64,000 nt of DNA. Source: Sulfuritalea sp. (lineage in GTDB: Bacteria; Pseudomonadota; Gammaproteobacteria; Burkholderiales; Rhodocyclaceae). Below the pieces are notes generated by a model. The model had not been told where the DNA came from and ran no database searches. It saw nothing but the letters and a program-made list of their open reading frames with translations. Positions within the stretch are counted from its first letter, which is position 1, and each line of letters opens with the position of its first letter. Both the position numbers and the translations under genes were made by a program. Location of the stretch: NCBI GenBank assembly GCA_030680805.1, contig JAUXUK010000041.1, positions 1 to 64,000 of the forward strand, given 5' to 3'. Shown here in pieces: positions 11,068-63,588 of the stretch.

Positions 11068-11152
11068 CGCCGTATCGCCATCCGCTACGGCGAGGAGAGC
11101 GTTTCTTGCTCGACCGCCTTGTAGCGCAGTTGTTTCATCAGCGCCGACTTTT
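11068..11152 (-). repeat. dispersed repeat, long form, copy 1 (split by a 60-bp core)
   Basis: The left half CGCCGTATCGCCA (11068-11080) and right half GCGCCGACTTTT (11141-11152) are the two halves of a short repeat found elsewhere in the window. Here they are separated by 60 bases. Positions 11076-11146 are identical to 14441-14511. Inside, TCGCCGTA and TACGGCGA can pair as an 8-bp stem. On the minus strand the core holds a 17-codon frame (MKQLRYKAVEQETLSSP, 11138 down to 11085) without a ribosome-binding site. It lies between the lipoprotein gene and the ATPase operon. Confidence 0.8.
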
Positions 11153-11166
11153 CCGTCGCCCGTCCC

Positions 11167-11664
11167 CTACTGCGCAGGCTCGGCGCCAACATACTGTTCG
11201 GGCCTTGCCATGGTGCTGCGCACCTTCCCGGACGTAGCGTCGAACAGAACCATCATGCGCCAGGGCTCGTTGGAGACGCGGTAGCGCCAATCCCAGACCA
11301 GCTCGTCACGCGCTTCGAAATAGGCGGTAGCGTTGGCGTCCGACGGACCGAGAATGCGCAAGACTTCCTCCTTGCCCATCCCGGCGCGAATGGTGGCCAG
11401 ATGCTGGTCGTCGAGCACGTTCTCGATGGTTTGCAACTTGCCGTTCGCGCCCAGCCGGACCATGAAGGTGTCAAAGCCGCCCGGGCCCCGTGGGTAGGCC
11501 AGCTGCCGCGAGCCGTCCGGGTCCTGCCACTGCAGCGCCGGCGGGCCCATCGTCGCCTGCACGTCCTCGATGCGAGCCTCGCCCGGCTTGAGGCCGCTAC
11601 CGCTGTAGGACGCGCATGCCGCAACGATCACTGACGAGGACAGGAGCAGTACTCTTTGCCACAT
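11167..11664 (-). CDS. BamE/SmpA-like lipoprotein
   Basis: A 165-residue lipoprotein with a short signal sequence ending in a V-A-A-C lipobox (Cys17). Two BamE-like repeats seem present: one around residues 30-75 (VQATMGPPALQWQDPDGSRQ) and a clearer one at 92-135 (IRAGMGKEEVLRILGPSD, then ELVWDWRY). BamE domains serve the outer-membrane protein assembly machine and related envelope tasks. The true BamE is shorter with one such repeat, so this is a paralogue. The start at 11664 gives the signal peptide directly; the longer frame to 11793 would bury it. It is transcribed divergently from the hydrolase gene. Confidence 0.75.
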   Translation of the reverse strand: MWQRVLLLSSSVIVAACASYSGSGLKPGEARIEDVQATMGPPALQWQDPDGSRQLAYPRGPGGFDTFMVRLGANGKLQTIENVLDDQHLATIRAGMGKEEVLRILGPSDANATAYFEARDELVWDWRYRVSNEPWRMMVLFDATSGKVRSTMARPEQYVGAEPAQ

Positions 11665-11825
11665 GATGGGTCCAAGTTTTGAATGCGAGAGCATTAGAGT
11701 AGCACTTGCACTCGCGAGTTCAGTGCCGGAAAACGTGCGAGCTTGTACGGAGCACGACAAGACGCCCGCCGCGCTGCGGTATAGTCGTTGCACACGCTGG
11801 CCACGACAATAGACAAGGATCCTTG

Positions 11826-12671
11826 ATGAAGCGCGTTGTTCTGACTGCCCGGGATGGCCACAATCTGGCCGCCTACCGTTTCGACCCGGAGGGCCCGGCC
11901 CGGGCCAACGTGGTCATCGCGGCGGCCATGGCGGTGCCCCAATCCTTCTATGCCCCGTTCGCCCGGTATCTCGCCCGCTGCGGCTACACGACCTGGACCT
12001 TCGATTACCGCGGCATCGGCGAGTCGCTGACCGGCTCGTTGCGCGCCGTCAAGGCCGACCTCAGCGACTGGCTGACCAAGGACTACGACGCCCTGCTGCA
12101 CGAGATCGGCGAAGCCTCGCCGCTGCCCCTGTTCGTCGTCGGTCACAGCTTCGGTGGTCAGGTGGCGCCGCTGCTGCCTTCGCGCGAACACCTCGCGGGC
12201 CTGGTGAATATCGCCGTCGGCAGCGGCTCGATGCGCCACAACACGCCGCGCATCCGCCGCTCGGCGCCGCTGATGTGGCACGTGCTCGCTCCGGTGCTGT
12301 GCCCCGTGTTCGGCTACTTCCCCGGTGCCCGTCTGGGCGTCATCGGCAATCTTCCCAGCGGAGCAATGTTCCAGTGGCGGCGCTGGTGCCTGACGCCGGA
12401 CTACCTGCTGAGCGGTGAACCCGGAGCGCGCGAAGCCTATGCCAGCGCCGACTATCCGGTGCTGGCGCTGACTTTCGCCGATGACGAGCTGCTGCTCGAG
12501 GATGGTTCGCGCCTGATTCATGCCGCCTACCTGAAGCGAGCCGTCGACTACCGCCTCCTTGAACCGGCGCAGCACAATCTGCCGCGTATCGGCCACTTCG
12601 GCTTTTTCAAACCGGCGAGCGAGGCCACCCTCTGGCCGCTGGTCACGAACTGGCTCGATGGCGCTACCTGA
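11826..12671 (+). CDS. alpha/beta hydrolase
   Basis: A 281-residue serine hydrolase fold. The nucleophile elbow GHSFGG lies at about residues 109-114. The acid is probably Asp in TFADDELL and the catalytic His is in RIGHFGFF near the C-terminus. AAMAVPQSFYAPFARYLARCG supplies the oxyanion-hole side and YRGIGES the usual strand-4 loop. The family ('alpha/beta hydrolase family protein', about 280 residues) has esterase-like members without a defined substrate. AAGGAT upstream of the ATG at 11826 supports the start. The glcG-like gene follows 40 bases later in the same direction. Confidence 0.8.
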   Translation: MKRVVLTARDGHNLAAYRFDPEGPARANVVIAAAMAVPQSFYAPFARYLARCGYTTWTFDYRGIGESLTGSLRAVKADLSDWLTKDYDALLHEIGEASPLPLFVVGHSFGGQVAPLLPSREHLAGLVNIAVGSGSMRHNTPRIRRSAPLMWHVLAPVLCPVFGYFPGARLGVIGNLPSGAMFQWRRWCLTPDYLLSGEPGAREAYASADYPVLALTFADDELLLEDGSRLIHAAYLKRAVDYRLLEPAQHNLPRIGHFGFFKPASEATLWPLVTNWLDGAT

Positions 12672-12711
12672 AACAACCCGTCCAACAGATTCATTCATCA
12701 TGGAGAGCCGC

Positions 12712-13101
12712 ATGCTTACCCTCGAAGACGCACAGCGCATTACCCTCGCCGCCCGCCGCACGGCAGCCGAAAACAACTGGAACGTGGCCATTGCGGTCGT
12801 CGATGACGGCGGCCACCTGATTTCGCTGGCGCGCATGGACGGAACCCAGAAGGGCTCCATCCGCATCTGCGAACAGAAGGCCAGAACCGCCGTTCTTTTC
12901 AAGCGCCCGACCAAGGCCTTCGAGGACGCGGTGCTGCAGGGCCGCCCGGTGTTCATGTCGATGCCCGACGTGATCTGCCTGGAGGGCGGCGTACCGCTGA
13001 TCCGCGAGGGGGTTTATCTCGGCGCAATCGGCGTTTCCGGCGTCAAGTCGTCCGAAGACGGAGTTGTCGCCGCCGCGGGGGCCGCTGCGCTGGGCGCCTA
13101 A
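12712..13101 (+). CDS. GlcG/HbpS-type heme-binding domain protein
   Basis: A 129-residue single-domain protein of the GlcG/HbpS family (DUF336). It has ALVVDDGG-type strands (AIAVVDDGGHLISLARMDG) and the C-terminal GVYLGAIGVSG followed by a GA-rich helix. Members bind heme or small ligands, or sit beside glycolate and diol metabolism genes; the exact job is unclear. GGAGAG lies 5 bases before ATG 12712, preferred over ATG 12700. Its stop overlaps the stop of the convergent glutaredoxin-like gene by four bases. Confidence 0.85.
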   Translation: MLTLEDAQRITLAARRTAAENNWNVAIAVVDDGGHLISLARMDGTQKGSIRICEQKARTAVLFKRPTKAFEDAVLQGRPVFMSMPDVICLEGGVPLIREGVYLGAIGVSGVKSSEDGVVAAAGAAALGA

Positions 13102-13466
13102 GCGGCCGCCATGCGGGCGAATTCGCCGCTGTCGATCAGCCGGCGCAATTCGCTGGCGCCGCCGACCAGGGTGCCGTTCACAAAGACCATGGGAAAAGTG
13201 GGCCAGCCGGTCCACATCTTGAGCGCGTTGCGGCGCCGCCACTGGCTGAGATAGCTTCCGTACTCGAGATACTGGTAGGGCGTGCCGTGCGCATCGAGCG
13301 CCTTGCGCGCCATGCGTGGAAAGGGGTTTTGCGCCATGCCGACGACGACCACCTTGTTGCCGGCGATGGCGGCCTGCACTTCGCGCACGATGTCGGCATT
13401 GTTGTCCGCGATGGTCTGGCGGGCGGCAGGGTGAATATGGGCTTCGTCCAGAACGCTGCGACTCAT
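13098..13466 (-). CDS. glutaredoxin-fold protein lacking the active-site cysteines
   Basis: A 122-residue protein with the monothiol-glutaredoxin pattern (KVVVVGMAQNPFPRMARKALD, WPTFPMVFVNGTLVGGASEL). At the position where glutaredoxins have CPYC or CGFS it reads NPFP (residues 47-50), so no redox thiol remains there. The cis-proline TFP and the glutathione-loop GGASEL are kept. This suggests a binding or regulatory role rather than disulfide reduction. AAGGAGCCC before ATG 13466 fixes the start. The frame continues upstream through a dispersed repeat copy, but that part is probably untranslated. Confidence 0.75.
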   Translation of the reverse strand: MSRSVLDEAHIHPAARQTIADNNADIVREVQAAIAGNKVVVVGMAQNPFPRMARKALDAHGTPYQYLEYGSYLSQWRRRNALKMWTGWPTFPMVFVNGTLVGGASELRRLIDSGEFARMAAA

Positions 13467-13553
13467 GTCGGGCTCCTTGTTGTCGGAATGCCGGACGCGT
13501 CGATCAAGGGCGGCGCGTCGGGAAACCATCTTACCCCGCGCCAGGCGAACGCT

Positions 13554-13577
13554 CGCCGTATCGCCAACGCCGACTTT
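13554..13577. repeat. dispersed repeat, short form
   Basis: CGCCGTATCGCCA followed directly by ACGCCGACTTT, one mismatch from the consensus and one base shorter. It lies upstream of the glutaredoxin-like gene, in the spacer shared with the coiled-coil gene. Confidence 0.75.
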
Positions 13578-13654
13578 CCGGGTCAGATATCGTGGTCTGC
13601 GCAACCCTCGGCAAGAACCGCTGCGGCGATCGCCTCCCGAGACGGCGGATGCGC

Positions 13655-14356
13655 TTACCTGGCCGCCGCTGCAGCAGCGGCAGCCTGCCTGGCGGCCTCT
13701 TCTGCCTCCCGCCGTTTCAAGGTTTCGGCATATTGCCGCGACCGTTCGTCGATCTTCTTCACGCGCTCGGCATGCTGCCGTTCCCGCTCCGCCTTCTTGC
13801 TGGCATTGCCCGGAGCCTTTGCGGCCCGCTTCGCATCCTCCTGGCTGCGTGCCGCGAGCTTCTGCTGCTGCGCCGCGCGCTCGGCCGCTGCCTTGCCGCG
13901 ACGGGCCTCGAGCTTTTTCGATTCCTCGGCCCGACTCCGTTCGCGCTCGGCAGCCCGTTGCGCTTCTTTCTCGCGGTAGCGTTCGACATCGGCCTTCTGT
14001 TTCGCTTCCTCGGCGGGCGCCTCGGCAGCGCGCTTCGCGGCCTTGGCCTCGACCTCGCTGCGACGAATTTCGCGTTCGGCCTTGCGCCCCGCCTGCTCGA
14101 GCGCATTAGCCTCCTTCACTGATTCGGCATGCCGTTCCTTCGCCGAACTCATGCACCCGATGGCAATCGCCCTGGTGTGACAGGCTGCCTTGTCCGCTTC
14201 GTACCTGGCCTCGGCTTCGCCTTTGAGCGCCTTGCCTCTGACGCGCTGGGCGCGAGCCTCGTCAAGCGAGAGCGGCGATGGTGCTTGCGCTGTTTGCGCC
14301 GAGGCCCATGCGTGGGCAAGCATCAGGCCGATACCCAGCACGTTTCCAATCTGCAT
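13655..14356 (-). CDS. secreted coiled-coil protein, function unknown
   Basis: A 233-residue protein with an N-terminal signal peptide (hydrophobic IGLMLAHAWASAQ, cleavage after ASA). After it come about 200 residues of almost uninterrupted charged helix rich in Ala, Glu, Arg and Lys. Two cysteines (in AACHTRAIAIGCMSS, about residues 59 and 67) may form a disulfide. The composition resembles TolA-like periplasmic stalks, but there is no membrane anchor or TolA C-terminal domain. AAGGAGG just before ATG 14356 fixes the start. I cannot assign a function. Confidence 0.65.
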   Translation of the reverse strand: MQIGNVLGIGLMLAHAWASAQTAQAPSPLSLDEARAQRVRGKALKGEAEARYEADKAACHTRAIAIGCMSSAKERHAESVKEANALEQAGRKAEREIRRSEVEAKAAKRAAEAPAEEAKQKADVERYREKEAQRAAERERSRAEESKKLEARRGKAAAERAAQQQKLAARSQEDAKRAAKAPGNASKKAERERQHAERVKKIDERSRQYAETLKRREAEEAARQAAAAAAAAR

Positions 14357-14432
14357 CCAGTCCTCCTTGCGAACGAGCAGCTTAGCCGGTTCGCCATGGG
14401 TTTTCCATTTTCCCGCACGTTCAATGCGATGC

Positions 14433-14511
14433 CGCCGTCCCGCCATCCGCTACGGCGAGGAGAGCGTTTCTTGCTCGACCGCCTTGTAGCGCAGTTGTTT
14501 CATCAGCGCCG
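14433..14511 (-). repeat. dispersed repeat, long form, copy 2
   Basis: The left half (CGCCGTCCCGCCA, 14433-14445) is followed by the 60-bp core identical to that at 11081-11140, then GCGCCG, after which the right half diverges. Positions 14441-14511 match 11076-11146 base for base. It lies in the divergent spacer between the coiled-coil gene and the flavin dehydrogenase gene and has the same orientation as copy 1. Confidence 0.8.
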
Positions 14512-14606
14512 GGTCGCGACCATGGTATCCGGGAGTGCGACTGGCCGGGCGATAGGGTTCGCATGATTTCAGGCTAAACTCCGACGCAAAACAAGGAGGA
14601 GCGACC

Positions 14607-16205
14607 GTGAGCGAAGTCATCGTCATCGGCGGCGGCATAGCGGGCATCTGCGCCGCGCTGGAGCTTCTCGACGCCGGGCGCCGGGTGCTGCTGCTCGAGC
14701 GCGACACCGCCGACAACTTCGGCGGCCTGGCGAAGGAAAGCTTCGGCGGCATCTTTCTGGTCGGCACCCCCGAGCAGCGGCGCGCCGGCATACGCGACAC
14801 GCCGGAACTGGCGCTGGCCGACTGGAAGGCCTTTGGCGAACTCGATCCCAACGACCGCTGGCCCCTGGCCTGGGCAGAAGCCTATGTGCAGCGCTGCCAC
14901 GACGACGTGGGCGTCTGGCTGCGAGAGCGCGGCGTCGGTTTCCTTCCCGCGCCGCACTGGGTCGAACGCGGCCTGTTCACGCCCGGCAATTCCGTACCGC
15001 GCTTTCATATCGTCTGGGGCACCGGGCATGAGTTGGCGCTGCGCCTGATCGATCAGCTTGAAAACCACCCGCAGCGCGGACGGCTCGAAATCCGCTTCGG
15101 CCAGCGCGTCGAAAGCCTGCTGACATCGAACGGAGCGGTCACCGGCTGCAAGGGCGTCCGCGAGGCGGATCAGCAGCCCTTCGAGGCCGGCGCGGGCAGC
15201 GTGATTGTCGCCGCCGGCGGTTTCAACGGCAACATCGAGCGCGTGCGGCAGCACTGGCATCGCGACTGGGGTTCGCCGCCGCCGGTCATCCTCAACGGCT
15301 CGCACCGCTATGCGGACGGCCGGCTGCACGATGCGGTGAGCGCCGCCGGCGGCCAGCTGACGCATCTCGATTCGATGTGGAACTATGCCGCCGGAGTGAG
15401 GCATCCACGGCCGCGCAAACCCGGCCACGGCCTCTCGCTGGTACCGCCGCGCTCGGCCCTGTGGCTCGACTGGAGCGGCCGGCGCATCGGGCCGATGCCG
15501 CTGGTGACGGGTTTCGACACCCGCGATCTGGTCGCCCAGGTCTGTGCCCAGGAGCGGCAGTATTCCTGGCAACTGATGAACAAACGCATCGCGCTGAAAG
15601 AGCTCGCGGTATCGGGCGCCGAGTTCAACCCGTCGATCCGCGACAAGAAGAAGTTCGCCTTCCTGCGCGACATCCTGATCGGCAACCAGTGGCTGTACGA
15701 CGAGATGACCGGTTCCTGCGAGGACTTCGTGGTCGGCCGCGATCTGCCCGAGCTGGTGAACAAAATGAACGCGCTGCAGGGCGACGACGCGGTGAGCCTC
15801 GACACCCTGCGGCAGACGGTGGAGGCCTACGATGCGCAGATCGACCGCGGCCAGAGCCTGCACAACGACGAGCAGTTGCGGCGCATCGCCTACGTGCGGC
15901 ACTGGAAGGGCGACCGCATCCGCACCTGCAAGTTCCAGAAGATCCTCGACCCGAAGGCCGCGCCGCTGATCGCCGTGCGCGAATTCATCATCAGCCGCAA
16001 GAGCCTCGGTGGCATCCAGACCGATCTGCAAAGCCGCGTGCTGGACCACGCCGGGCAGCCGATTGCCGGCCTGTTTGCGGCGGGCGAAGCGGCCGGCTTC
16101 GGCGGCGGCGGCATGCACGGCCTGCGTGCGCTGGAAGGCAGCTTCCTTGGCGGCTGCATTCTTTCCGGCCGCATCGCCGGGCAAGCAGCCGCCGCAAACA
16201 CCTGA
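14607..16205 (+). CDS. FAD-binding dehydrogenase (fumarate reductase/3-ketosteroid dehydrogenase superfamily)
   Basis: A 532-residue flavoprotein. The N-terminal Rossmann motif GGGIAGICAALELLDAG with a glutamate 20 residues on (LLERD) binds FAD. The C-terminal GLFAAGEAAGFGGGGMHG closes the site. The segments DNFGGLAKESFGG, PLAWAEAYVQ and NSVPRFHIVWGTG match the 'FAD-binding dehydrogenase' group (Rv0785-like) in the fumarate reductase/KstD superfamily. The substrate is unknown; steroid or other alpha,beta-desaturation is possible. It begins with GTG, supported by AAGGAGGA 8 bases upstream. The ThDP enzyme gene follows after 24 bases, so the two are probably one transcript. Confidence 0.85.
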   Translation: MSEVIVIGGGIAGICAALELLDAGRRVLLLERDTADNFGGLAKESFGGIFLVGTPEQRRAGIRDTPELALADWKAFGELDPNDRWPLAWAEAYVQRCHDDVGVWLRERGVGFLPAPHWVERGLFTPGNSVPRFHIVWGTGHELALRLIDQLENHPQRGRLEIRFGQRVESLLTSNGAVTGCKGVREADQQPFEAGAGSVIVAAGGFNGNIERVRQHWHRDWGSPPPVILNGSHRYADGRLHDAVSAAGGQLTHLDSMWNYAAGVRHPRPRKPGHGLSLVPPRSALWLDWSGRRIGPMPLVTGFDTRDLVAQVCAQERQYSWQLMNKRIALKELAVSGAEFNPSIRDKKKFAFLRDILIGNQWLYDEMTGSCEDFVVGRDLPELVNKMNALQGDDAVSLDTLRQTVEAYDAQIDRGQSLHNDEQLRRIAYVRHWKGDRIRTCKFQKILDPKAAPLIAVREFIISRKSLGGIQTDLQSRVLDHAGQPIAGLFAAGEAAGFGGGGMHGLRALEGSFLGGCILSGRIAGQAAAANT

Positions 16206-16229
16206 ACCCTTGAGTACGGAGACAACCGC

Positions 16230-17963
16230 ATGAAACGAACCGGCGCCTGGATCGCGGTACGAGCCCTCGAAGCCCTGGGTATCAAATTCACGTTCGGCAT
16301 TCCCGGCGTGCACAACACCGAGCTGTACGACGAACTCAACAGTTCGCCATCGATCACGCCGGTGCTGGTGACCCACGAAGGCGGCGCTGCGTTCATGGCC
16401 GATGGCGTCAGCCGCACCTCGGACCTGACCGGCACGCTGGTGATCGTCCCGGCCGCCGGCGCCACCCATGCCGCCAGCGGCATCGGCGAGGCCTTTCTCG
16501 ACGGCGTGCCGATGCTGGTGATCTGCGGCGGCATCCGCACCGACCTGGACAAGCGCTACCAGCTTCACGAGCTCGATCAGCACGCCTTTCTGAAAGCCCT
16601 GACCAAGGCCACCTTCCTCGTCACCCGCCACGAGGACATCGCACCCACCTTGTTCAAGGCCTGGGAAATCGCCCACTCCGGAGAACCAGGTCCGGTCTTT
16701 GTCGAGATCCCCGTCAATCTCCAGATGTTTCCGGGCGAGGCAGGCGAGCTTCCGGCGCCACCGGTGATCGCCAAACCGCAACGCGCCGCCGCTGCCGACA
16801 TTCGGCGCGCCGCGGAGATGCTGCTGGCGGCGAAGCATCCCGCAATGTTTCTCGGCTGGGGCGCCCGCGACGCCTTCGAGCAAACCCGCGCCATCGCCGA
16901 GTTGCTCCAGGCGCCGGTGGCCACCACCCTGCAAGGCCTGTCGGTGTTCTCCGCCGCCCATCCGCTGCACACCGGCTTCAGCTTCGGCGCCGCAGCCGTC
17001 CCGGCGGCGCGCAATGCCTTCGCCGACTGCGACTGCCTGCTGGCGGTCGGCACCCGCTTCGCGGAAATCGCCACGGGCAGCTTCGGCGTCACGGTGCCGC
17101 CGAACCTGATTCACTCGGATATCAACCCGGCAGTATTCAATGCCAACTACCCGGCGGCAGTGACGCTGGAGGGAGATGCCAGCGCGGTACTGGCCGCACT
17201 GCTGGCAGAGCTGCAAAAACTCGGCGCGAGCGGCACGGCGAATACCGCATTGCACGCCCGCATACAGCGCGACAAGCTCGCCTACAACGACGAATGGCTG
17301 CGCCACGACTGCGGCGGCAAGGTCAACCCGGCGGTGTTTTTCAATGCGCTGCGCGCGGCGATGCCCGACGATTCGATTGCCGTGGTCGACGACGGCAACC
17401 ACACCTACCTGACCGCGGAACTGTATCCCGTGCGACAGCCCAAGGGGCTGATCGTGCCGACCGATTTCAACAGCATGGGCTACGCAGTGCCGGCCGCCAT
17501 CGGCGCCAGGCTGGCCAACCCGCAGCGCGAAGTATTCGCCATCGTCGGCGACGGTGCTTTCACCATGACCTGCATGGAAATTGTTTCCGCGACGCGACTC
17601 GGGCTCGGGCTGGTGTTCTACGTGTTCCATGACGGCGAGCTGTCGCAGATCGCCCAGGCGCAGGAGATTCCCTTCAATCGCAAGCCCTGCACGGCGCTGG
17701 GGGCGATCGACTTCAGCGGCGTCGCCATCGCCACCGGCGCCGAATACATCCGGGTACCGTCGAACGACGAGGTAAGCGCCGCGATCGCGCAGGCGCGCGA
17801 ACTGGCCGCCGGCGGACGGCCGGTGATCGTCGACCTGATCATGGACTATTCCAAACGCACGGCATTCACGCAGGGTGCCGTCAAAACCAACTTCAAGCGC
17901 TTGCCGCTGGCTCAGCGCCTGCGCATGGTGACCCGTGCGGTGAGGCGAAAAATCACCGGCTGA
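16230..17963 (+). CDS. thiamine diphosphate-dependent enzyme, acetolactate synthase-like
   Basis: A 577-residue ThDP enzyme of the acetolactate synthase/benzoylformate decarboxylase family. The activating glutamate is in VTHEGGAAFMADG (about residue 50). The ThDP/Mg motif begins with GDGAF at about 440, but the usual Asn of the motif is replaced in FHDGELSQIAQAQ. The window has a separate, canonical ilvB, so biosynthesis of branched-chain amino acids is not its likely job. It may be a 2-oxoacid decarboxylase or carboligase acting with the upstream flavin dehydrogenase. The substrate cannot be read from sequence. Confidence 0.82.
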   Translation: MKRTGAWIAVRALEALGIKFTFGIPGVHNTELYDELNSSPSITPVLVTHEGGAAFMADGVSRTSDLTGTLVIVPAAGATHAASGIGEAFLDGVPMLVICGGIRTDLDKRYQLHELDQHAFLKALTKATFLVTRHEDIAPTLFKAWEIAHSGEPGPVFVEIPVNLQMFPGEAGELPAPPVIAKPQRAAAADIRRAAEMLLAAKHPAMFLGWGARDAFEQTRAIAELLQAPVATTLQGLSVFSAAHPLHTGFSFGAAAVPAARNAFADCDCLLAVGTRFAEIATGSFGVTVPPNLIHSDINPAVFNANYPAAVTLEGDASAVLAALLAELQKLGASGTANTALHARIQRDKLAYNDEWLRHDCGGKVNPAVFFNALRAAMPDDSIAVVDDGNHTYLTAELYPVRQPKGLIVPTDFNSMGYAVPAAIGARLANPQREVFAIVGDGAFTMTCMEIVSATRLGLGLVFYVFHDGELSQIAQAQEIPFNRKPCTALGAIDFSGVAIATGAEYIRVPSNDEVSAAIAQARELAAGGRPVIVDLIMDYSKRTAFTQGAVKTNFKRLPLAQRLRMVTRAVRRKITG

Positions 17964-26363: not shown

Positions 26364-27170
26364 ATGGCTCCACCCGAAAAATCAGTGATTGCGGACGTTC
26401 AGAGCAGCGAGGATTCGCGCCAGTTGCCGATCAACAAAGTCGGCATCAAGGACATTCGCCATCCTTTCAAGGTCCTCGACAAGAGCGGCGGCGTGCGCCA
26501 CACCATTGCCACCTTCAACATGTATGTCGGGCTGCCCCACAACTTCAAGGGCACCCACATGTCTCGTTTCGTCGAGATCCTCAATGCCCATGAAGAGGAA
26601 ATCTCGGTCGAGAGTTTCGAGACCATGTTGCGCGAAATGGTGACCCGGCTCGAAGCCGCCACCGGCCACCTTGAAATGAGCTTCCCCTATTTCATCAACA
26701 AGGTCGCGCCCGTCTCCGGCGTCAAGAGCCTGATGGACTACGAGGTCACCTTCATCGGCGAGATCGCAGAAGGCGGCCGCTATCGGCAAACCATCAAGGT
26801 CGTGGTCCCCGTCACCAGCCTGTGCCCCTGTTCGAAGAAGATATCCGAGCGCGGTGCGCACAACCAGCGCTCCCATGTCACGATTTCCGCCACGACCAAC
26901 CAGCTGGTGTGGATCGAAGACATCGTCCGCATGGCTGAAACGCAGGCTTCATGCGAGCTCTACGGCCTGCTGAAGCGCCCCGACGAAAAGTACGTCACCG
27001 AGCGGGCCTACGACAATCCGAAGTTCGTCGAAGACCTGGTACGCGACGTGGCCGGCGCACTCAATGCCGATCCGCGCATCGACGCCTATGTGGTCGAGAG
27101 CGAGAATTTCGAGTCAATCCACAACCACTCGGCCTACGCCCTGATCGAGAGCAACAAGAAGCGCTACTGA
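26364..27170 (+). CDS. folE2: GTP cyclohydrolase FolE2 (type IB)
   Basis: A 268-residue type IB GTP cyclohydrolase, making dihydroneopterin triphosphate for folate (and queuosine precursor) synthesis. The catalytic cysteine lies in [20 protein letters not shown]. Further marks are the N-terminal GIKDIRHPF and the C-terminal [13 protein letters not shown]. Type IB enzymes use various metals and often replace FolE1 under zinc limitation, though I see no Zur site. AGGGA 5 bases before ATG 26364 favours that start; ATG 26346 is an alternative. A hairpin terminator follows. Confidence 0.92.
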
Positions 27171-27185
27171 TCTTGGCGCTTGCCC

Positions 27186-27227
27186 AACGAAAAGGGCCGT
27201 CCGGCATGCCGGACGGCCCTTTTCGTT
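27186..27227. terminator. bidirectional terminator between folE2 and rplS
   Basis: A perfect 42-base palindrome (each arm reads AACGAAAAGGGCC GTCCGGCA, with an A-rich outer and GC-rich inner part). It sits between convergent folE2 and rplS, and each direction ends in a TTTT run, so it should terminate both. Confidence 0.88.
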
Positions 27228-27246
27228 GTATCCGTTTGGCGTCGAA

Positions 27247-27695: not shown

Positions 27696-28451
27696 CTAAT
27701 GGCTTTCCCGCTGGAATTCCGCCAGCAAGTCGGCTTCTTCGCTACTCAACGTCCTGATCTCCATGAGATCCGGCCGTCTTTGCCACGTCCGACCCAGCGC
27801 CTGTTTCAGGCGCCAGCGCCGGATTCTTTCGTGGTTGCCCGACAAAAGCACATCGGGCACCGCATTTCCTTCATACACTTCCGGCCGCGTGTAGTGCGGG
27901 CAGTCCAACAAGCCAGCGGCAAATGAATCCTCCACCGCCGATGCTTCATCATTCAACGCCCCTGGCAGCTGCCTGATGCAGGCATCCATCAAGGCCATCG
28001 CCGCCAGTTCGCCGCCGGAAAGAACGAAATCGCCCAGCGACAATTCCTCATCCACGCAGCGCTCGATCAAGCGCTCATCAATGCCTTCGTACCTGCCACA
28101 GAGCAGAATCGCTCCATCGCCTGCTGCCAGTTCTGCCACGCGCCGCTGGTCGATCCGGGCGCCCTGCGGTGAAAGATAGATCACTTTCGCCGTCCCGCCA
28201 GCGCCGACTTTTGCCGCCGCTTTTGCCGCGCCTATCGCCTGCTCCAGCGGCGAGGCCATCATCACCATCCCGGGGCCGCCGCCGTAAGGCCGGTCATCCA
28301 CCGTCCGATGCACATCCTGCGTCCACTGCCGGGGGTTCCAGCATTCGATCTGCCACAGCCCCCGACCCAGCGCACGCCGGGTAATTCCCGACGCCGTTAG
28401 CGCCGCAAACATCTCGGGGAACAGCGTGATGACATCGAAGCGCAAGCTCAC
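27696..28451 (-). CDS. trmD: tRNA (guanine37-N1)-methyltransferase
   Basis: A 251-residue SPOUT methyltransferase that makes m1G37 in tRNAs and so prevents +1 frameshifting. The S-adenosylmethionine knot is visible: [38 protein letters not shown] and [11 protein letters not shown]. Between AAKAAA and KVIYLSPQG there are about four more residues than in E. coli TrmD. They are encoded by a dispersed repeat copy (28188-28212) that reads KVGAGGTA. The loop lies outside the knot, so activity is probably kept. It overlaps rimM by four bases. Confidence 0.96.
28188..28212. repeat. dispersed repeat, short form, inside trmD
   Basis: CGCCGTCCCGCCA followed by GCGCCGACTTTT, two mismatches from the consensus in the left half. 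It is in frame on the minus strand, encoding a KVGAGGTA-like stretch at about residues 80-88 of TrmD. Confidence 0.75.
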
Positions 28452-48928: not shown

Positions 48929-49867
48929 CTACACAACGGCTTCCTGCTTCTCGACCTTGGGCTGTACGAACTGCGCGCGCGAAACGCCGAGCCACATCAC
49001 CAGCGGGCTGGCGACCAGGACCGAGGAATAGATGCCGAAACAAATGCCGATGGTCAGCGCCAGGGCGAAGTAATGCAGGGCCGGGCCGCCGAAAATCAGC
49101 ATCGAGGTCACCATCATCTGGGTCGAGCCGTGGGTGATGATGGTGCGCGAAATGGTGCTGGTGATGGCGTGGTCCAGCACCTCCGGCGTGGTCATGCCGC
49201 GCTTCTTCTTGAAGGTTTCGCGCACCCGGTCGAACACCACCACCGACTCGTTCACCGAGTAGCCCAGCACCGCCAGCACCGCGGCCAGCACCGGCAGCGA
49301 GAACTCCCACTGGAAGAAGGAGAAGAAGCCGAGGATGATCACCACGTCATGCATGTTGGCGATGATGGCCGAGAGGGCAAAGCGCCACTCGAAACGGAAG
49401 GCCAGATAGAGCATGATGCCCGCCACCACCAGCAGCAGCGCCAGGGCGCCGTCCTCGGCAAGCTCCTTGCCCACCTGCGGCCCGACGAACTCGACCCGCT
49501 TCAGCGCCGGCGCCGTGCCACCGGCGCCGGCTTTTGCAAGCGAGGCCATGACCTGATCACCGACCTTCGAGCTTTCCGTGCCCTTCACCAGCGGAACGCG
49601 GATCAGCACGTCGCGCGAGGAACCAAAATTCTGCACCTGGGTATCGGTAAAGCCGTCGCCTTCCAGCTGCTTGCGGATTTGTGTCAGGTCGGCCGCCTGG
49701 GCGTAGCCGACTTCGATCAACGTACCGCCGGTGAACTCGACGGAAAAATGCAGGCCGCGGGTGGCGAGGAAGAACACCGCCAGCAAAAAAGTGATCAACG
49801 AGATGATGTTGAACACCAGTGCGTGGCGCATGAAGGGGATGTCTTTGCGGATGCGGAAAAATTCCAT
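48929..49867 (-). CDS. secF: protein translocase subunit SecF
   Basis: A 312-residue RND-like membrane subunit. GLHFSVEFTGGTLIEVGY is in the first periplasmic part. Transmembrane helices carry the conserved GYSVNESVVVFDRVRE and the C-terminal STQMMVTSMLIFGGPALH. With SecD it uses the proton motive force to finish protein export. A degenerate copy of the dispersed repeat encodes KAGAGGTA at about residues 111-119, in the periplasmic loop. It starts one base after secD. Confidence 0.96.
   Translation of the reverse strand: MEFFRIRKDIPFMRHALVFNIISLITFLLAVFFLATRGLHFSVEFTGGTLIEVGYAQAADLTQIRKQLEGDGFTDTQVQNFGSSRDVLIRVPLVKGTESSKVGDQVMASLAKAGAGGTAPALKRVEFVGPQVGKELAEDGALALLLVVAGIMLYLAFRFEWRFALSAIIANMHDVVIILGFFSFFQWEFSLPVLAAVLAVLGYSVNESVVVFDRVRETFKKKRGMTTPEVLDHAITSTISRTIITHGSTQMMVTSMLIFGGPALHYFALALTIGICFGIYSSVLVASPLVMWLGVSRAQFVQPKVEKQEAVV
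49511..49535. repeat. dispersed repeat, degenerate short form, inside secF
   Basis: CGCCGTGCCACCG followed by GCGCCGGCTTTT, four mismatches to the best copy. In frame on the minus strand, it encodes KAGAGGTA in a non-conserved loop. It may be an old copy or a coincidence of GC-rich coding. Confidence 0.4.
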
Positions 49868-52161: not shown

Positions 52162-54296
<2,135 letters not shown>

Positions 54297-57541: not shown

Positions 57542-57768
57542 TACCGGTCGCCGGGTGCTGCATTGCAATAGACGCGAATTGATCGCCCGACTCGTTTTAT
57601 TCCATTGTTTCAGCGATTGCCCGAATAGTTTTTTTCCATTTACGCGGCGCGCTTAGTGTGCAAAACTTGCGCACTCGTTAGTCCACGGCGCTTTGATTCA
57701 TAAAGCTGATGTGGCAAATTTGCCAGCAATTCAGTCAGACATTCAACGATTCGGAGGAGAACAAGGCA

Positions 57769-58245: not shown

Positions 58246-58272
58246 TCAAACCAAACGAAAAGGGAACACACC

Positions 58273-58584
58273 ATGGCAGATCCGATGAAAATTCGCGCCC
58301 AGTTGAAGGGTGACGTGGCGGAAATCCGTATCCTGATGAGTCACGCGATGGAAACCGGCCAGCGCAAGGACGCGGCCGGGGCGACCGTGCCGCCTCACTT
58401 CATTCAATCGATGACGATTGATGTCGGCGGCAAGCGAGTGGTCGACGGCCAGACCGGCACCGCGATATCGCGCAACCCGGTCTTTGGCTTCAAGATGAAA
58501 GGCGCCAAGGCCGGTGACAAGGTCGTCGTCAACTGGGTGGACAACAAGGGCGACAAGAGAAGCGACGAAGCTACAGTAGCTTAA
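58273..58584 (+). CDS. soxZ: SoxZ, SoxY-binding subunit
   Basis: A 103-residue immunoglobulin-like protein with the family segments MKIRAQLKGDVAEIRILMSHAMETGQ and NPVFGFKMKGAKAGDKV. It pairs with SoxY and rides through the Tat system with it, so it has no signal peptide. Coded 27 bases after soxY. Confidence 0.96.
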   Translation: MADPMKIRAQLKGDVAEIRILMSHAMETGQRKDAAGATVPPHFIQSMTIDVGGKRVVDGQTGTAISRNPVFGFKMKGAKAGDKVVVNWVDNKGDKRSDEATVA

Positions 58585-58651
58585 AAGTTTCATCCGCAAA
58601 TAATAATTCGGGGCGGGACACACCCACCCCAAACCCTGACAGGAGGAGACG

Positions 58652-59524
58652 ATGAAACAACGACTCATCGGCGCGCTCTGCGCCATGGCGGTGATGGGCG
58701 GCGCGTTCGCCCAGTCCCCCGCCAAGAAGCCGGCGACCAAGCCGGCGGCCAAGGCCTCTGTGGCACCGGCAGCGGAAGAAAAGGATCCCGCCACGCTGGA
58801 ATTCGAGAAGTTCCGTGCCGAGATGGAGGACAGCAACCCGGCCGAACTGTTTGAGGCCAAGGGCCAGGAACAATGGAAGACCAAGCGCGGCCCGAAGAAC
58901 GTGTCGCTGGCCGAGAGCTGCGACCTGGGCCAGGGCGTGGGCAAGGTCGAAGGCGCCTATGTGAAGATGCCGCGCTATTTCGCCGATGCCGATGCCGTGA
59001 TGGATGCCGAACGGCGCATCGTCTGGTGCATGGTCGAGAAGCAGGGCTTCAAGTTCGACGATATCGCCAAGCAGCCGTTCGCCAACGAAACCAGAACTCC
59101 CGACATCACCAATCTGGTCACCTATGTCGCCGGTCATTCGCGCAACATGAAAATCGCCGTGCCGCTCAACGATCCCAAGGTGCGCGCGGCGTATGAAACG
59201 GGCAAGGAGATAGCCGCCTATCGTGCCGGCCCCTATGACTTCTCCTGCAACACCTGCCACGGCGTCGACGGCAAGCGCATCCGCATGCAGAACCTGCCCA
59301 ACCTCAGCACTCCCGCGGGTGCCATGAAGGGCGTCCAGGGCTGGCCCGGCTATCGCATGACCGGCGGCGTGATGCTGACCCATCAGTGGCGCATGGGCGA
59401 CTGCTTCCGCCAGCAGCGCTTCCCGCAACCGCAATACGCCTCTGATGCGGTCGCTTATCTGCTGACCTACATGACCGGCACCGCCAACGGCCAGGTCTAC
59501 AAAGGCCCGGGCATCAAGCGCTAA
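58652..59524 (+). CDS. soxA: L-cysteine S-thiosulfotransferase subunit SoxA (single-heme form)
   Basis: A 290-residue periplasmic cytochrome with a Sec signal peptide ending near AFA. Only one heme-binding site, CNTCH (199-203), is present. The Cys251 in MGDCFRQQRFPQP is the heme ligand that becomes a cysteine persulfide in catalysis. Diheme SoxA, as in Paracoccus, has a second CxxCH near the N-terminus; here two cysteines (in ESCDLG and WCMVEK) remain, likely a disulfide. With SoxX it attaches thiosulfate to SoxY. Confidence 0.95.
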   Translation: MKQRLIGALCAMAVMGGAFAQSPAKKPATKPAAKASVAPAAEEKDPATLEFEKFRAEMEDSNPAELFEAKGQEQWKTKRGPKNVSLAESCDLGQGVGKVEGAYVKMPRYFADADAVMDAERRIVWCMVEKQGFKFDDIAKQPFANETRTPDITNLVTYVAGHSRNMKIAVPLNDPKVRAAYETGKEIAAYRAGPYDFSCNTCHGVDGKRIRMQNLPNLSTPAGAMKGVQGWPGYRMTGGVMLTHQWRMGDCFRQQRFPQPQYASDAVAYLLTYMTGTANGQVYKGPGIKR

Positions 59525-59537
59525 CAGGGAGACAGAC

Positions 59538-60155
59538 ATGACCAAGACCATTCTTATGGCCACCGCCGTGGCCTTGCCTTTCCTGACCGTCGCTGTTCCT
59601 GCCGCTGCGGATGGTGACTATCGCGCGCAGGCGATCGCCGTAATCAAGAAGGACTTCAAGCCGCGTGGGCAGGCCGGCCTCGACCGGCTGGCGGAGGACG
59701 GCGTGCAGGCGATCTGCAATCGCACCGGCAACAAGCCGCCCGAATACATCGAGAAGGCAATGAACGCCGACCAGTTGGCGGCCGTCAAGCTTCCTGCCGA
59801 CGGCAAGTTGATGGGGGACTGGAAGGAAGGCGAAAAGATTGCCCAGAGCGGACGCGGCTTCACCTGGACCGACAACCCCGGCCTGCCGGTAGGCGGCAAC
59901 TGCTACAACTGCCACCAGATCGCGCCCAAGGAGACATCCTTCGGCACGCTCGGTCCGAGCCTGTATCAATTCGGCAAGCTGCGCGGCAACACGGCCGAGA
60001 TCCAGAAATACACCTACAGCAAGATCTGGAATGCCAAGGCCTTCAACTTGTGCTCGGAAATGCCGCGCTTCGGGCATGCCGGTGCGCTGACCGAAAAACA
60101 GGTCAAGGACCTGGTGGCATTGCTGCTCGATCCCGAATCGCCGGTCAACAAATAA
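59538..60155 (+). CDS. soxX: SoxX cytochrome c subunit
   Basis: A 205-residue periplasmic monoheme cytochrome c. The signal peptide ends at AAA; the heme site is CYNCH at 122-126. The Met ligand is probably in CSEMPRFGHAGALT near the C-terminus. It begins 13 bases after soxA and forms the SoxXA complex. Its N-terminal region (about 25-100) is longer than in Paracoccus SoxX. A hairpin terminator follows before soxB. Confidence 0.95.
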   Translation: MTKTILMATAVALPFLTVAVPAAADGDYRAQAIAVIKKDFKPRGQAGLDRLAEDGVQAICNRTGNKPPEYIEKAMNADQLAAVKLPADGKLMGDWKEGEKIAQSGRGFTWTDNPGLPVGGNCYNCHQIAPKETSFGTLGPSLYQFGKLRGNTAEIQKYTYSKIWNAKAFNLCSEMPRFGHAGALTEKQVKDLVALLLDPESPVNK

Positions 60156-60170
60156 GTCACGTCATCCGGA

Positions 60171-60198
60171 AAAGCCTGGCCGCGGCCAGGCTTTTTTT
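60171..60198 (+). terminator. hairpin terminator between soxX and soxB
   Basis: AAGCCTGGCC and GGCCAGGCTT pair perfectly around a two-base centre (60172-60193) and are followed by a seven-T run. It lies 18 bases before the soxB start, inside the sox cluster, so it may dampen soxB expression or be read through. Confidence 0.82.
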
Positions 60199-60216
60199 CT
60201 ACCCAAGGAGTCTGTA

Positions 60217-61935
60217 ATGTCTTCGATGAGCCGTCGCGAATTCCTGCAAATCCTGGCCGCCGCTTCGGCGGCCGGATTTGCCCTCGATGCCCGTTCTGTC
60301 TGGGCCGCCGGCAAGGGCGACAGCCTTTACGAGTTGCAGAAATTCGGCAATGTCCATCTGCTGCATTTCACGGATTGCCACGCCCAACTGATGCCCATTC
60401 ATTTCCGCGAGCCAAGCGTAAACCTCGGTATCGGCGGCGCACTGGGCAAGGCGCCGCACCTGGTCGGCGAGCATTTGCTCAAGGCCTTCGGCATCAAGCC
60501 GGGCGGCATCGAAGCCCATGCCTTCACCTACCTGAATTTCGAAAAAGCAGCCAAAACCTACGGCAAGATCGGAGGCTTCGCGCATCTTGCCACGCTCGTC
60601 AAGCGCCTGCGCGCCGGGCGCCCCAACGCACTCTTGCTCGACGGCGGCGATACGTGGCAAGGCTCGTACACGGCGTTGCAGACCAAGGGCCAGGACATGG
60701 TCGACGCCTGCAAACTGCTCGGCGTGGATGTCATGGCCGGCCACTGGGAATTCACCCTGGGCGACAAGCGGGTTCTGGAAATCGTCGAGAAGGACTTCAA
60801 GGGCAAGATCGATTTCGTCGCCCAGAACATCAAGACCAGCGACTTCGGCGACAAGGTATTCGAGCCCTACAGCCTGCGCGAAATGAACGGGGTCAAGGTG
60901 GCTGTGATCGGCCAGGCCTTTCCCTACACGCCGATCGCCAACCCACGCTGGATGATGCCGGACTGGACCTTCGGCATTCAGGACGAGAACATGCAAAAGA
61001 CGGTCGACGAAGCCCGTGCAAAGGGCGCGCAGGTCGTCGTCCTGCTCTCGCACAACGGCATGGACGTGGACCTGAAGATGGCCACCCGCGTCACTGGCAT
61101 CGACGCGATCATGGGCGGCCACACCCACGACGGCGTGCCGCAACCCGTCACGATCAGGAATGCCGGCGGCCAGACACTGGTCACCAACGCCGGATCGAAC
61201 GGCAAGTTCCTCGCCGCACTCGACTTCGATGTACGCGGCGGGAAAGTTCAGGATTTCCGCTACAAGCTGCTGCCCGTCTTCTCCAACCTGCTGCCCGCAG
61301 ACGCAGAGATGGCGGCGCTGATCGACAAGGTGCGGGCGCCGCATAAGTCGAAACTGGAAGAAAAGCTCGCCGTCTCGGAAGGCCTGCTCTATCGACGCGG
61401 CAACTTCAACGGCAGTTGGGACCAGTTGATCCTCGATGCCATCATGGAAGTGCAGGGCGCCGACATCGGCTTCTCACCGGGCTTCCGCTGGGGAACCACC
61501 ATCCTGCCGGGCCAGGCCATCACCTTCGAACACCTGATGGACCAGACCGCGATCACCTACCCGAGCGCGACACTGAACGAGATGAGTGGCGAGCAGATCA
61601 AGATGATCCTCGAGGACGTGGGCGACAACCTGTTCAATCCCGACCCTTACTATCAGCAGGGCGGAGACATGGTGCGCGTCGGCGGCCTGCAATACACCTG
61701 CGAACCGAATGCAAAGATGGGCAGCCGCATCACCGACATGCGCCTGAAAGGCAAGCCGCTCGAGGCCGACAGGAAATACAAGGTCGCCGGTTGGGCGCCG
61801 GTGGCCGAGGGCGCCAAGGGCGAGCCGGTATGGGACGTGGTAGCGCGCTACCTGCGCGACAAGAAGACCATCACGCCACGCAAGCTGAACCAGCCCAAGC
61901 TGATTGGCATGAAGGGCAATCCGGGGATCGCTTAG
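60217..61935 (+). CDS. soxB: thiosulfohydrolase SoxB
   Basis: A 572-residue, dimanganese-dependent hydrolase that releases sulfate from SoxY-bound thiosulfonate. A Tat signal (MSRREFLQILAAASAAGFAL) opens it. Metal-binding blocks HFTDCHAQLMP, LLDGGDTWQGS, GHWEFTLG and GGHTHDGVP are intact. The 5'-nucleotidase-like C-terminal domain follows. No soxCD gene follows; macA comes next. GGAG precedes ATG 60217. Confidence 0.96.
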   Translation: MSSMSRREFLQILAAASAAGFALDARSVWAAGKGDSLYELQKFGNVHLLHFTDCHAQLMPIHFREPSVNLGIGGALGKAPHLVGEHLLKAFGIKPGGIEAHAFTYLNFEKAAKTYGKIGGFAHLATLVKRLRAGRPNALLLDGGDTWQGSYTALQTKGQDMVDACKLLGVDVMAGHWEFTLGDKRVLEIVEKDFKGKIDFVAQNIKTSDFGDKVFEPYSLREMNGVKVAVIGQAFPYTPIANPRWMMPDWTFGIQDENMQKTVDEARAKGAQVVVLLSHNGMDVDLKMATRVTGIDAIMGGHTHDGVPQPVTIRNAGGQTLVTNAGSNGKFLAALDFDVRGGKVQDFRYKLLPVFSNLLPADAEMAALIDKVRAPHKSKLEEKLAVSEGLLYRRGNFNGSWDQLILDAIMEVQGADIGFSPGFRWGTTILPGQAITFEHLMDQTAITYPSATLNEMSGEQIKMILEDVGDNLFNPDPYYQQGGDMVRVGGLQYTCEPNAKMGSRITDMRLKGKPLEADRKYKVAGWAPVAEGAKGEPVWDVVARYLRDKKTITPRKLNQPKLIGMKGNPGIA

Positions 61936-61980
61936 TTTCCAGTTGGTTTCCGCTTGGTTTCCGTTTACATCCGCTTACAT
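61935..61980 (+). promoter_or_regulatory. tandem 10-11-bp repeats upstream of macA
   Basis: GTTTCC occurs three times with an exact 11-base period (61935, 61946, 61957). TTACAT follows twice, ten bases apart (61965 and 61975). Direct repeats with this phasing are typical of response-regulator binding sites. TAGAAT at 62001-62006 could be a -10 element, but it lies only 8 bases before the macA ATG. Confidence 0.4.
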
Positions 61981-62013
61981 GCCGCATGGAAGGGATCGTC
62001 TAGAATTGCTTCC

Positions 62014-63588
62014 ATGAAGACATCTTCCCGAGTCGGACTGGCAACCATTGCCCTGGTCGTTGTTGTCTCCGCCGGCTATGCAGCATGGCGCCATTTCGGC
62101 ACACCCGGCGATACGCCGAAATTCAAACTGGCCAAGGCCGAGAACGGCCCGCTCACCGCCGTGGTTTCGGCCACCGGCACGCTGAACCCGGTGGTCTCGG
62201 TACAGGTCGGATCGCAAGTCTCCGGCCAGATCAAGGAAATCCTGGTCGACTTCAATTCGCCGGTGAAGGAAAACCAGCTGATCGCCCGCATCGATCCGGA
62301 AACCTTCCAGTACCGCTTGCGCCAGGCGGAAGCCGACGTCGAAGCGGCCCGCGCCGCGCTCGGAGTGCAACAGGCCGAGGTATTGCGCGCGAAGGCCAAC
62401 CTGGCCGAATTCGAACGCGACTTCGAGCGCAAGAAACTGCTGGTGGAAAAGAACTTCATTTCCGCCGCCGAGCGCGAGAAGGCGCAAAGCGTCCTTGACG
62501 CCGGGCGCGCCGCCTTGCAGGTGACGCAATCGCAAGCCAGGAACAGTGAAGCGCAGGTGCGCCAGCGCGAGGCGCAGCAGGCGCAGGCCCGCATCGATCT
62601 CGAACGCACGGCGATCAAGGCGCCGGTCGATGGCATCGTCGTCAAGCGCAGCATCGAGCCGGGGCAAACGGTCGCCGCCAGCCTGCAGTCGCCCGAGTTG
62701 TTTGTCATCGCCAAGAGCCTGACCGACATGCAGGTGGAAACCTCGATCGACGAAGCCGACGTCGGCCGCATCCGCGTCGGACAAAAGGCCAGTTTCACCG
62801 TCGACGCCTTCGCCGGCCGCAACTTTGAGGGTGAGGTCAAGCAGGTACGCAAGGCCGCCACCGTAGTCTCCAATGTCGTCACCTACACGGTGGTGGTTTC
62901 GGCGGCCAATCCCGAACTCACTTTGCTTCCCGGCATGACGGCCAACGTGCGGATCATTACGGCACAGAAGGAAAAGGCGCTGAAGATCCCCAATGCCGCT
63001 CTGCGCTTCCGTCCTCCGGGCACAGCGGACGAAAAGAAGACGGCCGCCGCCGTATCGCCAGCGCCGACTTCTTCAGGGAGTGGCGCGGGTGCCGCAGGGA
63101 GTAACGGCGGAGGCGGAGGCGCGGGTGGCGGAGGCTTTAGCCAGCTGCGCGAACGCCTGGTTACCGAGCTGAAACTCGATGCCGATCAACAGGGCAAGGT
63201 TGACGCCATCTTCGGCGGCATGCGCGACAAATTCAGGGCAAGCCGCGACCTGTCCGATGCGGAAAAGACCAGGGCGCAGGAACGCAATCGCGCCGAGATT
63301 CGCGAGAAGATCGCAGCCATCCTCACGCCCGAACAGAAGAAACGCTATGAGGAAATGGCCAGCGAGGCGCAGGCCGTCCGTGCCGGGGGCGGCGGTGGCA
63401 GCGGCCGCGTCTGGGTCATCGGCGAAGACGGCAGCCCGAAGGCCATCACTGTCCGCCTGGGACTGACCGATGGCAGCATGACCGAAATCGTCTCCGGCGA
63501 CATCAAGGAAAGCAGCGAAGTGATTGTCGGCCAGCAAACTGTCAACAGCGCCAAGCCTTCGGGCATGCCCGGCCCGCGCCTGTTCTGA
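62014..63588 (+). CDS. macA: MacA-type periplasmic adaptor with an inserted helical domain
   Basis: A 524-residue membrane-fusion protein of an ABC efflux pump. The N-terminal helix anchors it. VGSQVSGQIKEILVDFNSPVKENQLIARIDP starts the lipoyl domain, a coiled coil (110-190) follows, then IKAPVDGIVVKRSIEPGQTV. The family is about 370-395 residues. The extra ~125 (about 338-465) hold a Gly/Ser-rich linker and a Spy/CpxP-like helical segment with LTPEQKKRYEEM. A second Gly-rich linker comes before the last beta strands. A dispersed repeat copy lies in the first linker. ATG 62014 is preferred over 61954. Confidence 0.88.
   Translation: MKTSSRVGLATIALVVVVSAGYAAWRHFGTPGDTPKFKLAKAENGPLTAVVSATGTLNPVVSVQVGSQVSGQIKEILVDFNSPVKENQLIARIDPETFQYRLRQAEADVEAARAALGVQQAEVLRAKANLAEFERDFERKKLLVEKNFISAAEREKAQSVLDAGRAALQVTQSQARNSEAQVRQREAQQAQARIDLERTAIKAPVDGIVVKRSIEPGQTVAASLQSPELFVIAKSLTDMQVETSIDEADVGRIRVGQKASFTVDAFAGRNFEGEVKQVRKAATVVSNVVTYTVVVSAANPELTLLPGMTANVRIITAQKEKALKIPNAALRFRPPGTADEKKTAAAVSPAPTSSGSGAGAAGSNGGGGGAGGGGFSQLRERLVTELKLDADQQGKVDAIFGGMRDKFRASRDLSDAEKTRAQERNRAEIREKIAAILTPEQKKRYEEMASEAQAVRAGGGGGSGRVWVIGEDGSPKAITVRLGLTDGSMTEIVSGDIKESSEVIVGQQTVNSAKPSGMPGPRLF
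63048..63070. repeat. dispersed repeat, short form, inside macA
   Basis: CGCCGTATCGCCA followed by GCGCCGACTT, the consensus except for the last two bases. In macA it is read on the plus strand, the opposite sense to trmD and queA, and encodes AVSPAPTS in the linker of the inserted domain. Confidence 0.75.

Follow-up and report, generated by a model that had tools for sequence, protein, structure and literature searches.

The window analysed here, i.e., the whole 64,000-nucleotide (nt) stretch at positions 1 to 64,000 of contig JAUXUK010000041.1 of Sulfuritalea sp. (assembly GCA_030680805.1), carries intact, decayed and interrupted copies of a 24-base-pair (bp) sequence with the consensus (A)T-CGCCGTRTCGCCAGCGCCGACTTT-T, which recurs at hundreds of places in the same genome. 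The repeat family is real. In most computed tests the 24-mer looks like the self-recognition tags by which two other bacterial families select free DNA for uptake, and it is probably a DNA uptake sequence (DUS) maintained by biased uptake and recombination; if so, it would be the third case of such tags, in an environmental group outside both known families.

Abundance and placement of the 24-mer

The initial annotation of the window had held that the copies cannot come from chance and had proposed a genome-wide count. With up to three mismatches, the whole genome contains 448 copies, of which 229 are forward and 219 are reverse matches; the reversed pattern gave 0 and 1. An 864-kb sample, comprising the window and 40 stretches and corresponding to 27% of the 3.14-Mb genome, holds 121 sites at or above 18 bits, and its reversed sequence holds none. 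Copies with 0, 1, 2, 3, 4 and 5 mismatches number 23, 41, 26, 20, 11 and 8 in the sample and 0, 0, 0, 0, 1 and 0 in the reversed sequence, and the density of the motif is about 140 per Mb. The 69 genic copies represent an approximately tenfold excess over 50 synonymous-codon shuffles (mean 7.0, maximum 12), which still average seven matches because the residues themselves favour the motif; 50 codon-order shuffles gave no genic copies at all. Reversed-pattern counts and codon-shuffle controls are thus far below the observed numbers, and chance is excluded. The position profile derived from the sample reads (A)T-CGCCGT-R-T-CGCCAGCGCCGACTTT-T, with an inner CGCCGA and a T two bases downstream nearly invariant, and the flanks reach background within 1-2 bases. 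The predicted fold of the 24-mer is not better than that of shuffled sequences.

The copies occupy both genes and spacers, as had been reported for the window: among the 110 copies with up to three mismatches in the sample, 69 are genic, 40 intergenic and one lies across a boundary, at a coding fraction of 0.85 as determined with our own gene finder. Use of the reading frames by the genic copies is strongly unequal (KVGAGDTA 34, AVSPAPT 20, RRIASADF 7, KSALAIR 6, PYRQRRL 2 and SRRWRYG 0), and the nearest gene end is a 3' end for 25 of the 38 spacer copies with a gene on each side. Spacing is evener than chance, with a coefficient of variation of 0.76 that was equalled by 2 of 1000 random placements; the 864-kb sample has no close pairs, the smallest spacing being 70 bp. 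Two copies 70 bp apart (L001 and L002, at G000:C1:3263-3356) sit within an apparent tandem duplication of flanking sequence (GGGTCGAATTAACTTCG).

The copies in the window are the following.

11068..11080, + strand: left half of a 24-mer split by a 60-bp hairpin
11081..11140, + strand: 60-bp hairpin insert (family A), located between predicted genes
11141..11152, + strand: right half of the same split 24-mer as at 11068
13554..13577, + strand: 24-mer, 1 mismatch, close to the uncertain start of a glutaredoxin-domain gene
14433..14445, + strand: left half of a second split 24-mer
14446..14505, + strand: 60-bp hairpin insert, identical to the insert at 11081
14506..14511, + strand: remnant of a right half, GCGCCG left and the remainder lost; the damaged half reads GCGCCGGGTCGC
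17217..17240, - strand: 24-mer, 30.3 bits, within a thiamine pyrophosphate (TPP)-enzyme gene
28188..28211, + strand: 24-mer, 1 mismatch, within trmD, translated KVGAGGTA
49511..49534, + strand: decayed copy, 4 mismatches, 23.9 bits, within a SecD/SecF gene
53475..53498, + strand: exact 24-mer within queA, translated KVGAGDTA
63048..63071, + strand: 24-mer, 1 mismatch, within an HlyD-type membrane-fusion gene (macA in the initial annotation)

The uninterrupted copies first noticed (13554, 28188, 53475 and 63048) are correctly placed, with 0-1 mismatches each, as is the degenerate copy at 49511 with its 4 mismatches, and the two halves seen around a 60-bp core at 11068 and 14433 are real, with identical cores. 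That inventory overlooked the minus-strand copy at 17217-17240, and the window copies are therefore not confined to one strand. At the place aligned to 49511, the locus L096, from a record titled Sulfurisoma sp., has an exact 24-mer.

Distribution, dialects and orthologous sites

All 31 searched genomes of the window's genus carry the motif, with 33 to 656 copies at up to three mismatches. In a survey of 395 genomes of the family, for which copies with up to two mismatches were counted and genera were coded (g1 being the window's genus), 56 genomes hold more than 100 copies, i.e., 22 of 23 in g1, 18 of 19 in g19, 4 of 4 in g46, 9 of 9 in g119 and the single genomes of g8, g38 and g45; the carriers beyond the window's genus belong to six further genera. 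The next-lower counts are 34 (G052), 29 (G017), 17 (G085) and 15 (G279). Most of the family's other genera have almost no copies, and 59 genomes of other families in the order contain 0 to 5 copies. G017, a member of the window's genus, has only 33 copies at up to three mismatches, and its sites in QueA and TrmD are decayed. G328 has a single copy, while 18 of the 19 genomes of its genus (g19) hold about 200 to 700; G328 and G017 are perhaps recent losses of the drive, and both low-copy lineages look like natural loss experiments. Among database records, exact copies occur in those titled Sulfuritalea, Sulfurisoma and Rugosibacter. At least 116 named-genome stretches have an exact copy; by title, the matches listed comprise 20 Sulfuritalea, 9 Sulfurisoma, 4 Rugosibacter and 8 Burkholderiaceae bin, one or two each of Thiobacillus, Propionivibrio, Geobacteraceae, Betaproteobacteria and Gammaproteobacteria, and a remainder that is mostly Rhodocyclales.

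Samples of 40-60 kb from G048, G074, G075 and G037/G067 revealed other spellings of the motif. The spelling in G074, the sole genome of g45 with 85-154 copies, is ...CAGCGTCGACTTT and contains GTCGAC, and that common to G037 and G067 is CGCCGTCTCGCC... The spellings form dialects that track clades, as is expected of uptake sequences. The genes for QueA and TrmD were compared in 30 genomes chosen deliberately from carriers and non-carriers (14 carriers, with low-copy G017 and G052 counted as such, and 16 non-carriers). In the QueA and TrmD tree of these genomes, the carriers, joined by low-copy G058 and G035, are separated from the other 14 non-carriers with a support of 96; G058 and G035 sit on nodes with supports of 48 and 50, and low-copy G052 and G017 are nested among the carriers. 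The simplest reading of this tree would be a single origin followed by losses.

Of the motif copies in other loci, which number 377 with the viral ones, 18 are alignable across to stretches of the window's genome. At least 20 of the 24 bases are kept at 16 of these 18 places, one of which has a 12-base insertion in the copy of the window's genome; the remaining two differ through base substitutions or small gaps that balance out. Likewise at 16 of the 18, agreement across the 24-mer is above the average of its flanks. The early claim that the copies cannot be put down to common descent of the genes holds for the family, but many single copies are old and common to species and genera.

The QueA site scores 23-42 bits in 9 of the 14 carriers and at most 11 bits in all 16 non-carriers, none of which has a gap in the motif codons, and the alignment indicates that the motif in QueA arose by substitution, not by insertion. 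In TrmD, 6 of the 14 carriers reach at least 23 bits and all 16 non-carriers fall below 0; this stretch of TrmD has indels and is therefore uninformative on the origin of the motif. The refuting condition named in the initial annotation, the same residues in orthologues lacking the repeat, did not hold for QueA and TrmD in these 30 genomes: all 16 non-carriers have other codons here, and often other residues as well. Furthermore, G074 has its own spelling at these codons in both QueA and TrmD; a third place with this spelling, C29 of the window's genome compared with L306, aligns weakly, with flanks at 59%. A change of spelling in place is predicted by a receptor-driven tag and not by an inserted repeat.

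A probable uptake sequence and its rivals

Among the functions considered in the initial annotation, i.e., selfish insert, protein-binding signal and uptake or repair signal, the uptake signal fits best, and the selfish insert applies to the 60-bp core only. As a DUS, the 24-mer would serve as a genome-wide self tag preferred by a cell-surface receptor (probably a minor type IV pilin) during the uptake of free DNA. Tag-bearing fragments would be taken up and recombined more often, and tags originating by point substitution would therefore spread through the population and resist decay. The observed steps are abundance, presence on both strands, even spacing, tolerated reading frames, maintenance at aligned places, spellings and decay in some lineages; biased uptake, a receptor for it and recombination as the drive are what we infer.

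One account describes uptake tags only in Neisseriaceae and Pasteurellaceae, with DUS of up to about 13 nt and uptake signal sequence (USS) motifs that extend up to 32 nt, have AT-rich parts and form dialects by subclade (PMC12616744); another describes DUS as dispersed in genes and spacers on both strands, with clade-specific dialects and thousands of copies per genome (PMC3630211). Set against these accounts, the 24-mer is like the Neisseriaceae DUS in its presence in genes and spacers and on both strands and in its dialects, and a ComP_DUS-family pilin is encoded here. It differs in length (24 bp compared with up to about 13 nt) and abundance (about 140 per Mb compared with thousands per genome), its sequence diverges after GCCGTNT, there are no close pairs in 864 kb, and ComEA is not found in most carriers. 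It is not the Neisseriaceae DUS proper, its consensus being different from the 10-mer GCCGTCTGAA given in PMC3630211, in a letter-by-letter comparison that covers this 10-mer alone; GCCGTCT, common by eye to the 10-mer and the G037/G067 spelling, could be chance. The Pasteurellaceae USS is similar in its long overall motif and its dialects, however, its sequence is unrelated (AAGTGCGGT or ACAAGCGGT), it belongs to a different class of Proteobacteria, and in the present case information is spread across one continuous GC-rich 24-mer. No publication joining uptake sequences to Accumulibacter, Rhodocycl- or Sulfuritalea was found in a partial coverage of the literature that leaves absence unproven.

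Of 53 genomes, 51 have ComEC above the cut-off; the exceptions, G022 and G030, are drafts (85% and 79% complete) with a partial and a weak match. A ComP_DUS-family pilin is likewise present in 51 of 53. On contig 47 of the window's genome, the gene for this pilin lies together with GspH-type and PilW-type genes; a search of solved structures with the pilin returned type IV pilins generally and no entry named ComP. In G152, a 195-residue frame matches PF12836 (ComEA). Three partial matches to this domain (HHH_3) are present in G017 (C104, C111 and C80, in frames of 181-314 residues), which were not seen in the other searched g1 genomes.

A number of observations weigh against an uptake sequence. 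ComEA is above the TIGR00426 cut-off in only five of the 53 genomes, all of them non-carriers; PF12836 has no match in 7 of 43 genomes, including the window's own and the complete G002, and in most other carriers it matches only frames of about 800 residues, which are probably Tex. G074, with its 85-154 copies, has no ComP_DUS match. G017 has lost most tags and yet has the ComEA-like matches, the opposite of what simple loss of competence predicts, and it retains both ComEC and ComP_DUS genes. Altogether, ComEC, ComEA and ComP_DUS fail to separate carriers from non-carriers among the 43-53 chosen genomes, and a correlation with competence genes is rejected. An exact copy is present in 76 viral stretches, which contain further copies at 73 per Mb, compared with 148 in genome stretches. 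In the reverse comparison, the motif is retained in 27 of 75 pairs, gapped in 27 and decayed in 21, and conservation of the 24-mer exceeds that of its flanks in just 39 of the 75, in a set dominated by the QueA and TrmD loci with their deliberate mixture of carriers and non-carriers. The QueA site stays under 23 bits in five of the 14 carriers (G017, G022, G025, G048 and G052; 6-15 bits) and the TrmD site in eight of them (three at 5-14 bits, five below 0). Orientation agrees with GC skew in 64 of 110 copies, a weak and non-significant tendency (p 0.08). Finally, the motif is longer than known DUS, with a matrix information of 37 bits calculated from copies chosen by similarity.

An alternative that we regard as unlikely is that the 24-mer is bound by a cytoplasmic protein involved in chromosome organisation, segregation or repair, its sites being kept by selection at hundreds of places. 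Conservation at aligned places, even spacing and occupation of genes as well as spacers agree with such a role, however, the orientation shows no clear polarity (33/29 and 17/31 when split by GC skew, p 0.08, with mixed runs), 37 bits would be far above what selection at about 450 sites needs, and the G074 spelling at the same codons demands an outside drive or a fast-changing protein. KOPS (FtsK-orienting polar sequences) and Chi are strand-polar signals; polarity of this kind was rejected here based on the mixed orientation runs along the contigs of the window's genome and the weak tie to skew, and dominance of one strand in the complete genome G002 based on an exact reverse copy (L316). A cellular drive other than uptake, e.g., a recombinase or gene-conversion system that targets the 24-mer, would also account for the inserts described below, since three different short inserts recur at internal positions of the motif; we consider it distinctly unlikely, as no longer gene-bearing element lies between split halves in 3.6 Mb of loci and the majority of copies have no insert.

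The near-exact copies amid unrelated flanks, and the shared ends of insert-bearing versions, are what a mobile mini-element inserted place by place would leave, and a selfish, palindrome-like insert was among the initial proposals for the 24-mer. Such an origin is very unlikely: the fold is ordinary and not better than shuffles, the QueA motif codons are gapless in all 16 non-carriers (TrmD, with its indels, does not discriminate), 16 of 18 aligned places are shared, and a genus-specific spelling occupies the same codons. HIP1 (highly iterated palindrome) of cyanobacteria, REP (repetitive extragenic palindrome) and MITE (miniature inverted-repeat transposable element) sequences, Chi and KOPS are, as the 24-mer, abundant dispersed motifs, but the 24-mer is not palindromic by fold, not inserted in QueA and not clearly strand-polarised; an REP or MITE assignment was rejected since neither QueA nor the aligned places show a motif cleanly inserted relative to empty orthologues. 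Base composition or constraint on the encoded protein would agree with the plausible peptides given by some frames and with the seven matches that remain on average in synonymous shuffles. With 69 copies observed for 7.0 expected, 40 of 110 copies in spacers and near absence from most of the family's other genera, this explanation is extremely improbable, and it is refuted by the reversed-pattern count and the codon shuffles.

Inserts within the 24-mer

The selfish-insert idea holds for the 60-bp core, which is inserted inside the motif and has a clean empty orthologous site, as is characteristic of mobile mini-inserts. The core is exactly 60 bp, flanked by CGCCA and GCGCC, and sits exactly mid-motif; its ends are uncertain by 2 bp because CA is present at both junctions. 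The clean empty site was obtained by comparing a G028 copy with contig 15 of the window's genome, where the 24-mer has 1 mismatch, the junction gap is 0 and the flanks agree to 82% and 81%. Two less clean empty sites come from a G024 copy compared with contig 52 of the window's genome (2 mismatches, offset -6) and from a copy on its C35 compared with L138 (exact, offset 48). The window's genome contains four copies in a core-only search and at least ten matches in a search with 85 bases (core and halves); the latter search, in which 10 candidates were scored in most genomes, gives lower bounds, and it matched at least 29 of 91 genomes, including low-copy G039 and G043. Among 43 distinct core matches in fetched DNA, both motif halves are present in 33, the left only in 4, the right only in 5 and neither in 1, compared with 0.6% and 1.5% for the halves at random places; the share of cores with halves is biased upward because most loci were fetched using halves in the query.

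Folding predictions give a rod for the 60-base core alone (z -2.1 as DNA) and a different structure for the 85-mer. At two base pairs both partners are altered together, each in 8 of 28 sequences, and the 16 covarying cells exceed the shuffled mean of 4.9 (0 of 500 shuffles as high) in a set of related sequences; the number of covarying pairs does not exceed that in shuffles (473 of 500). Rfam gave no match for 10900-14700 up to E = 1, the exact core pattern had 0 matches in viral contigs, and the 85-mer had 0 in plasmids. Split halves, with 1 mismatch allowed in each and up to 4 kb between them, enclosed no long autonomous element in 3.6 Mb of loci, many of which are only 3-8 kb. A short open frame is present on the minus strand of the core.

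A wider scan for split motifs gave 26 places, compared with 17 in reversed sequence, and single rows of the scan therefore mean little; only repeated 24-nt and 36-nt inserts stand out. Motif-blind searches for the second insert (AGGAAGTCCC type, 24-27 bp) yielded 10 distinct copies, 9 of which, as judged by eye, are situated within the motif; it occurs in both orientations and at two positions in the 24-mer (L323:3649, L378:3631, L441, L467, L101, L102, L175, L310 and L450). In G025, QueA is interrupted by a similar insert of 27 bases that keeps the frame. A hairpin was rejected for this insert, as 108 of 200 shuffles fold as well. The third insert (CCCGCGAAGCGGATTCCCAGG type, about 36 bp) lies within motif remains, some of them weak, in 10 of 12 copies judged by eye, between CGCCGT and GCCAGCGCC (L482:8706, L291:4981, L172:3922 and others), and a relative of it is present inside the 60-bp core of L422. 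The shares for both inserts are biased because much of the DNA was fetched around motifs.

In our preferred, albeit unproven, reading, inserts within the tag pass to other tags through short-patch recombination in which the motif halves act as arms. Short fragments that are taken up could be patched into any matching tag without a transposase, and only inserts inside the tag would spread because their arms of about 7-17 bp match hundreds of genomic sites. Tag-dwelling inserts of this kind would be a new type of genomic parasite. We put forward only tentatively, and with considerable doubt, the broader proposal that this is an independent third lineage with uptake sequences, or one that shares an ancestral ComP-type recognition, in which the longest continuous tag known to us harbours at least three unrelated parasitic inserts, one of them with a covarying hairpin, at different internal positions, which move between tags and need no transposase to do so. 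With a third lineage, it could be tested what causes such tags to evolve, whether recognition of the ComP type predates Neisseria, and how a tag reaches 24 bp.

Two further features of the window are an inverted repeat at 63592-63769, with 32-nt arms that are 94% complementary and a 114-nt spacer, and a perfect 44-bp palindrome at 27185-27228 right after an open reading frame ending at 27170, which is perhaps a terminator.

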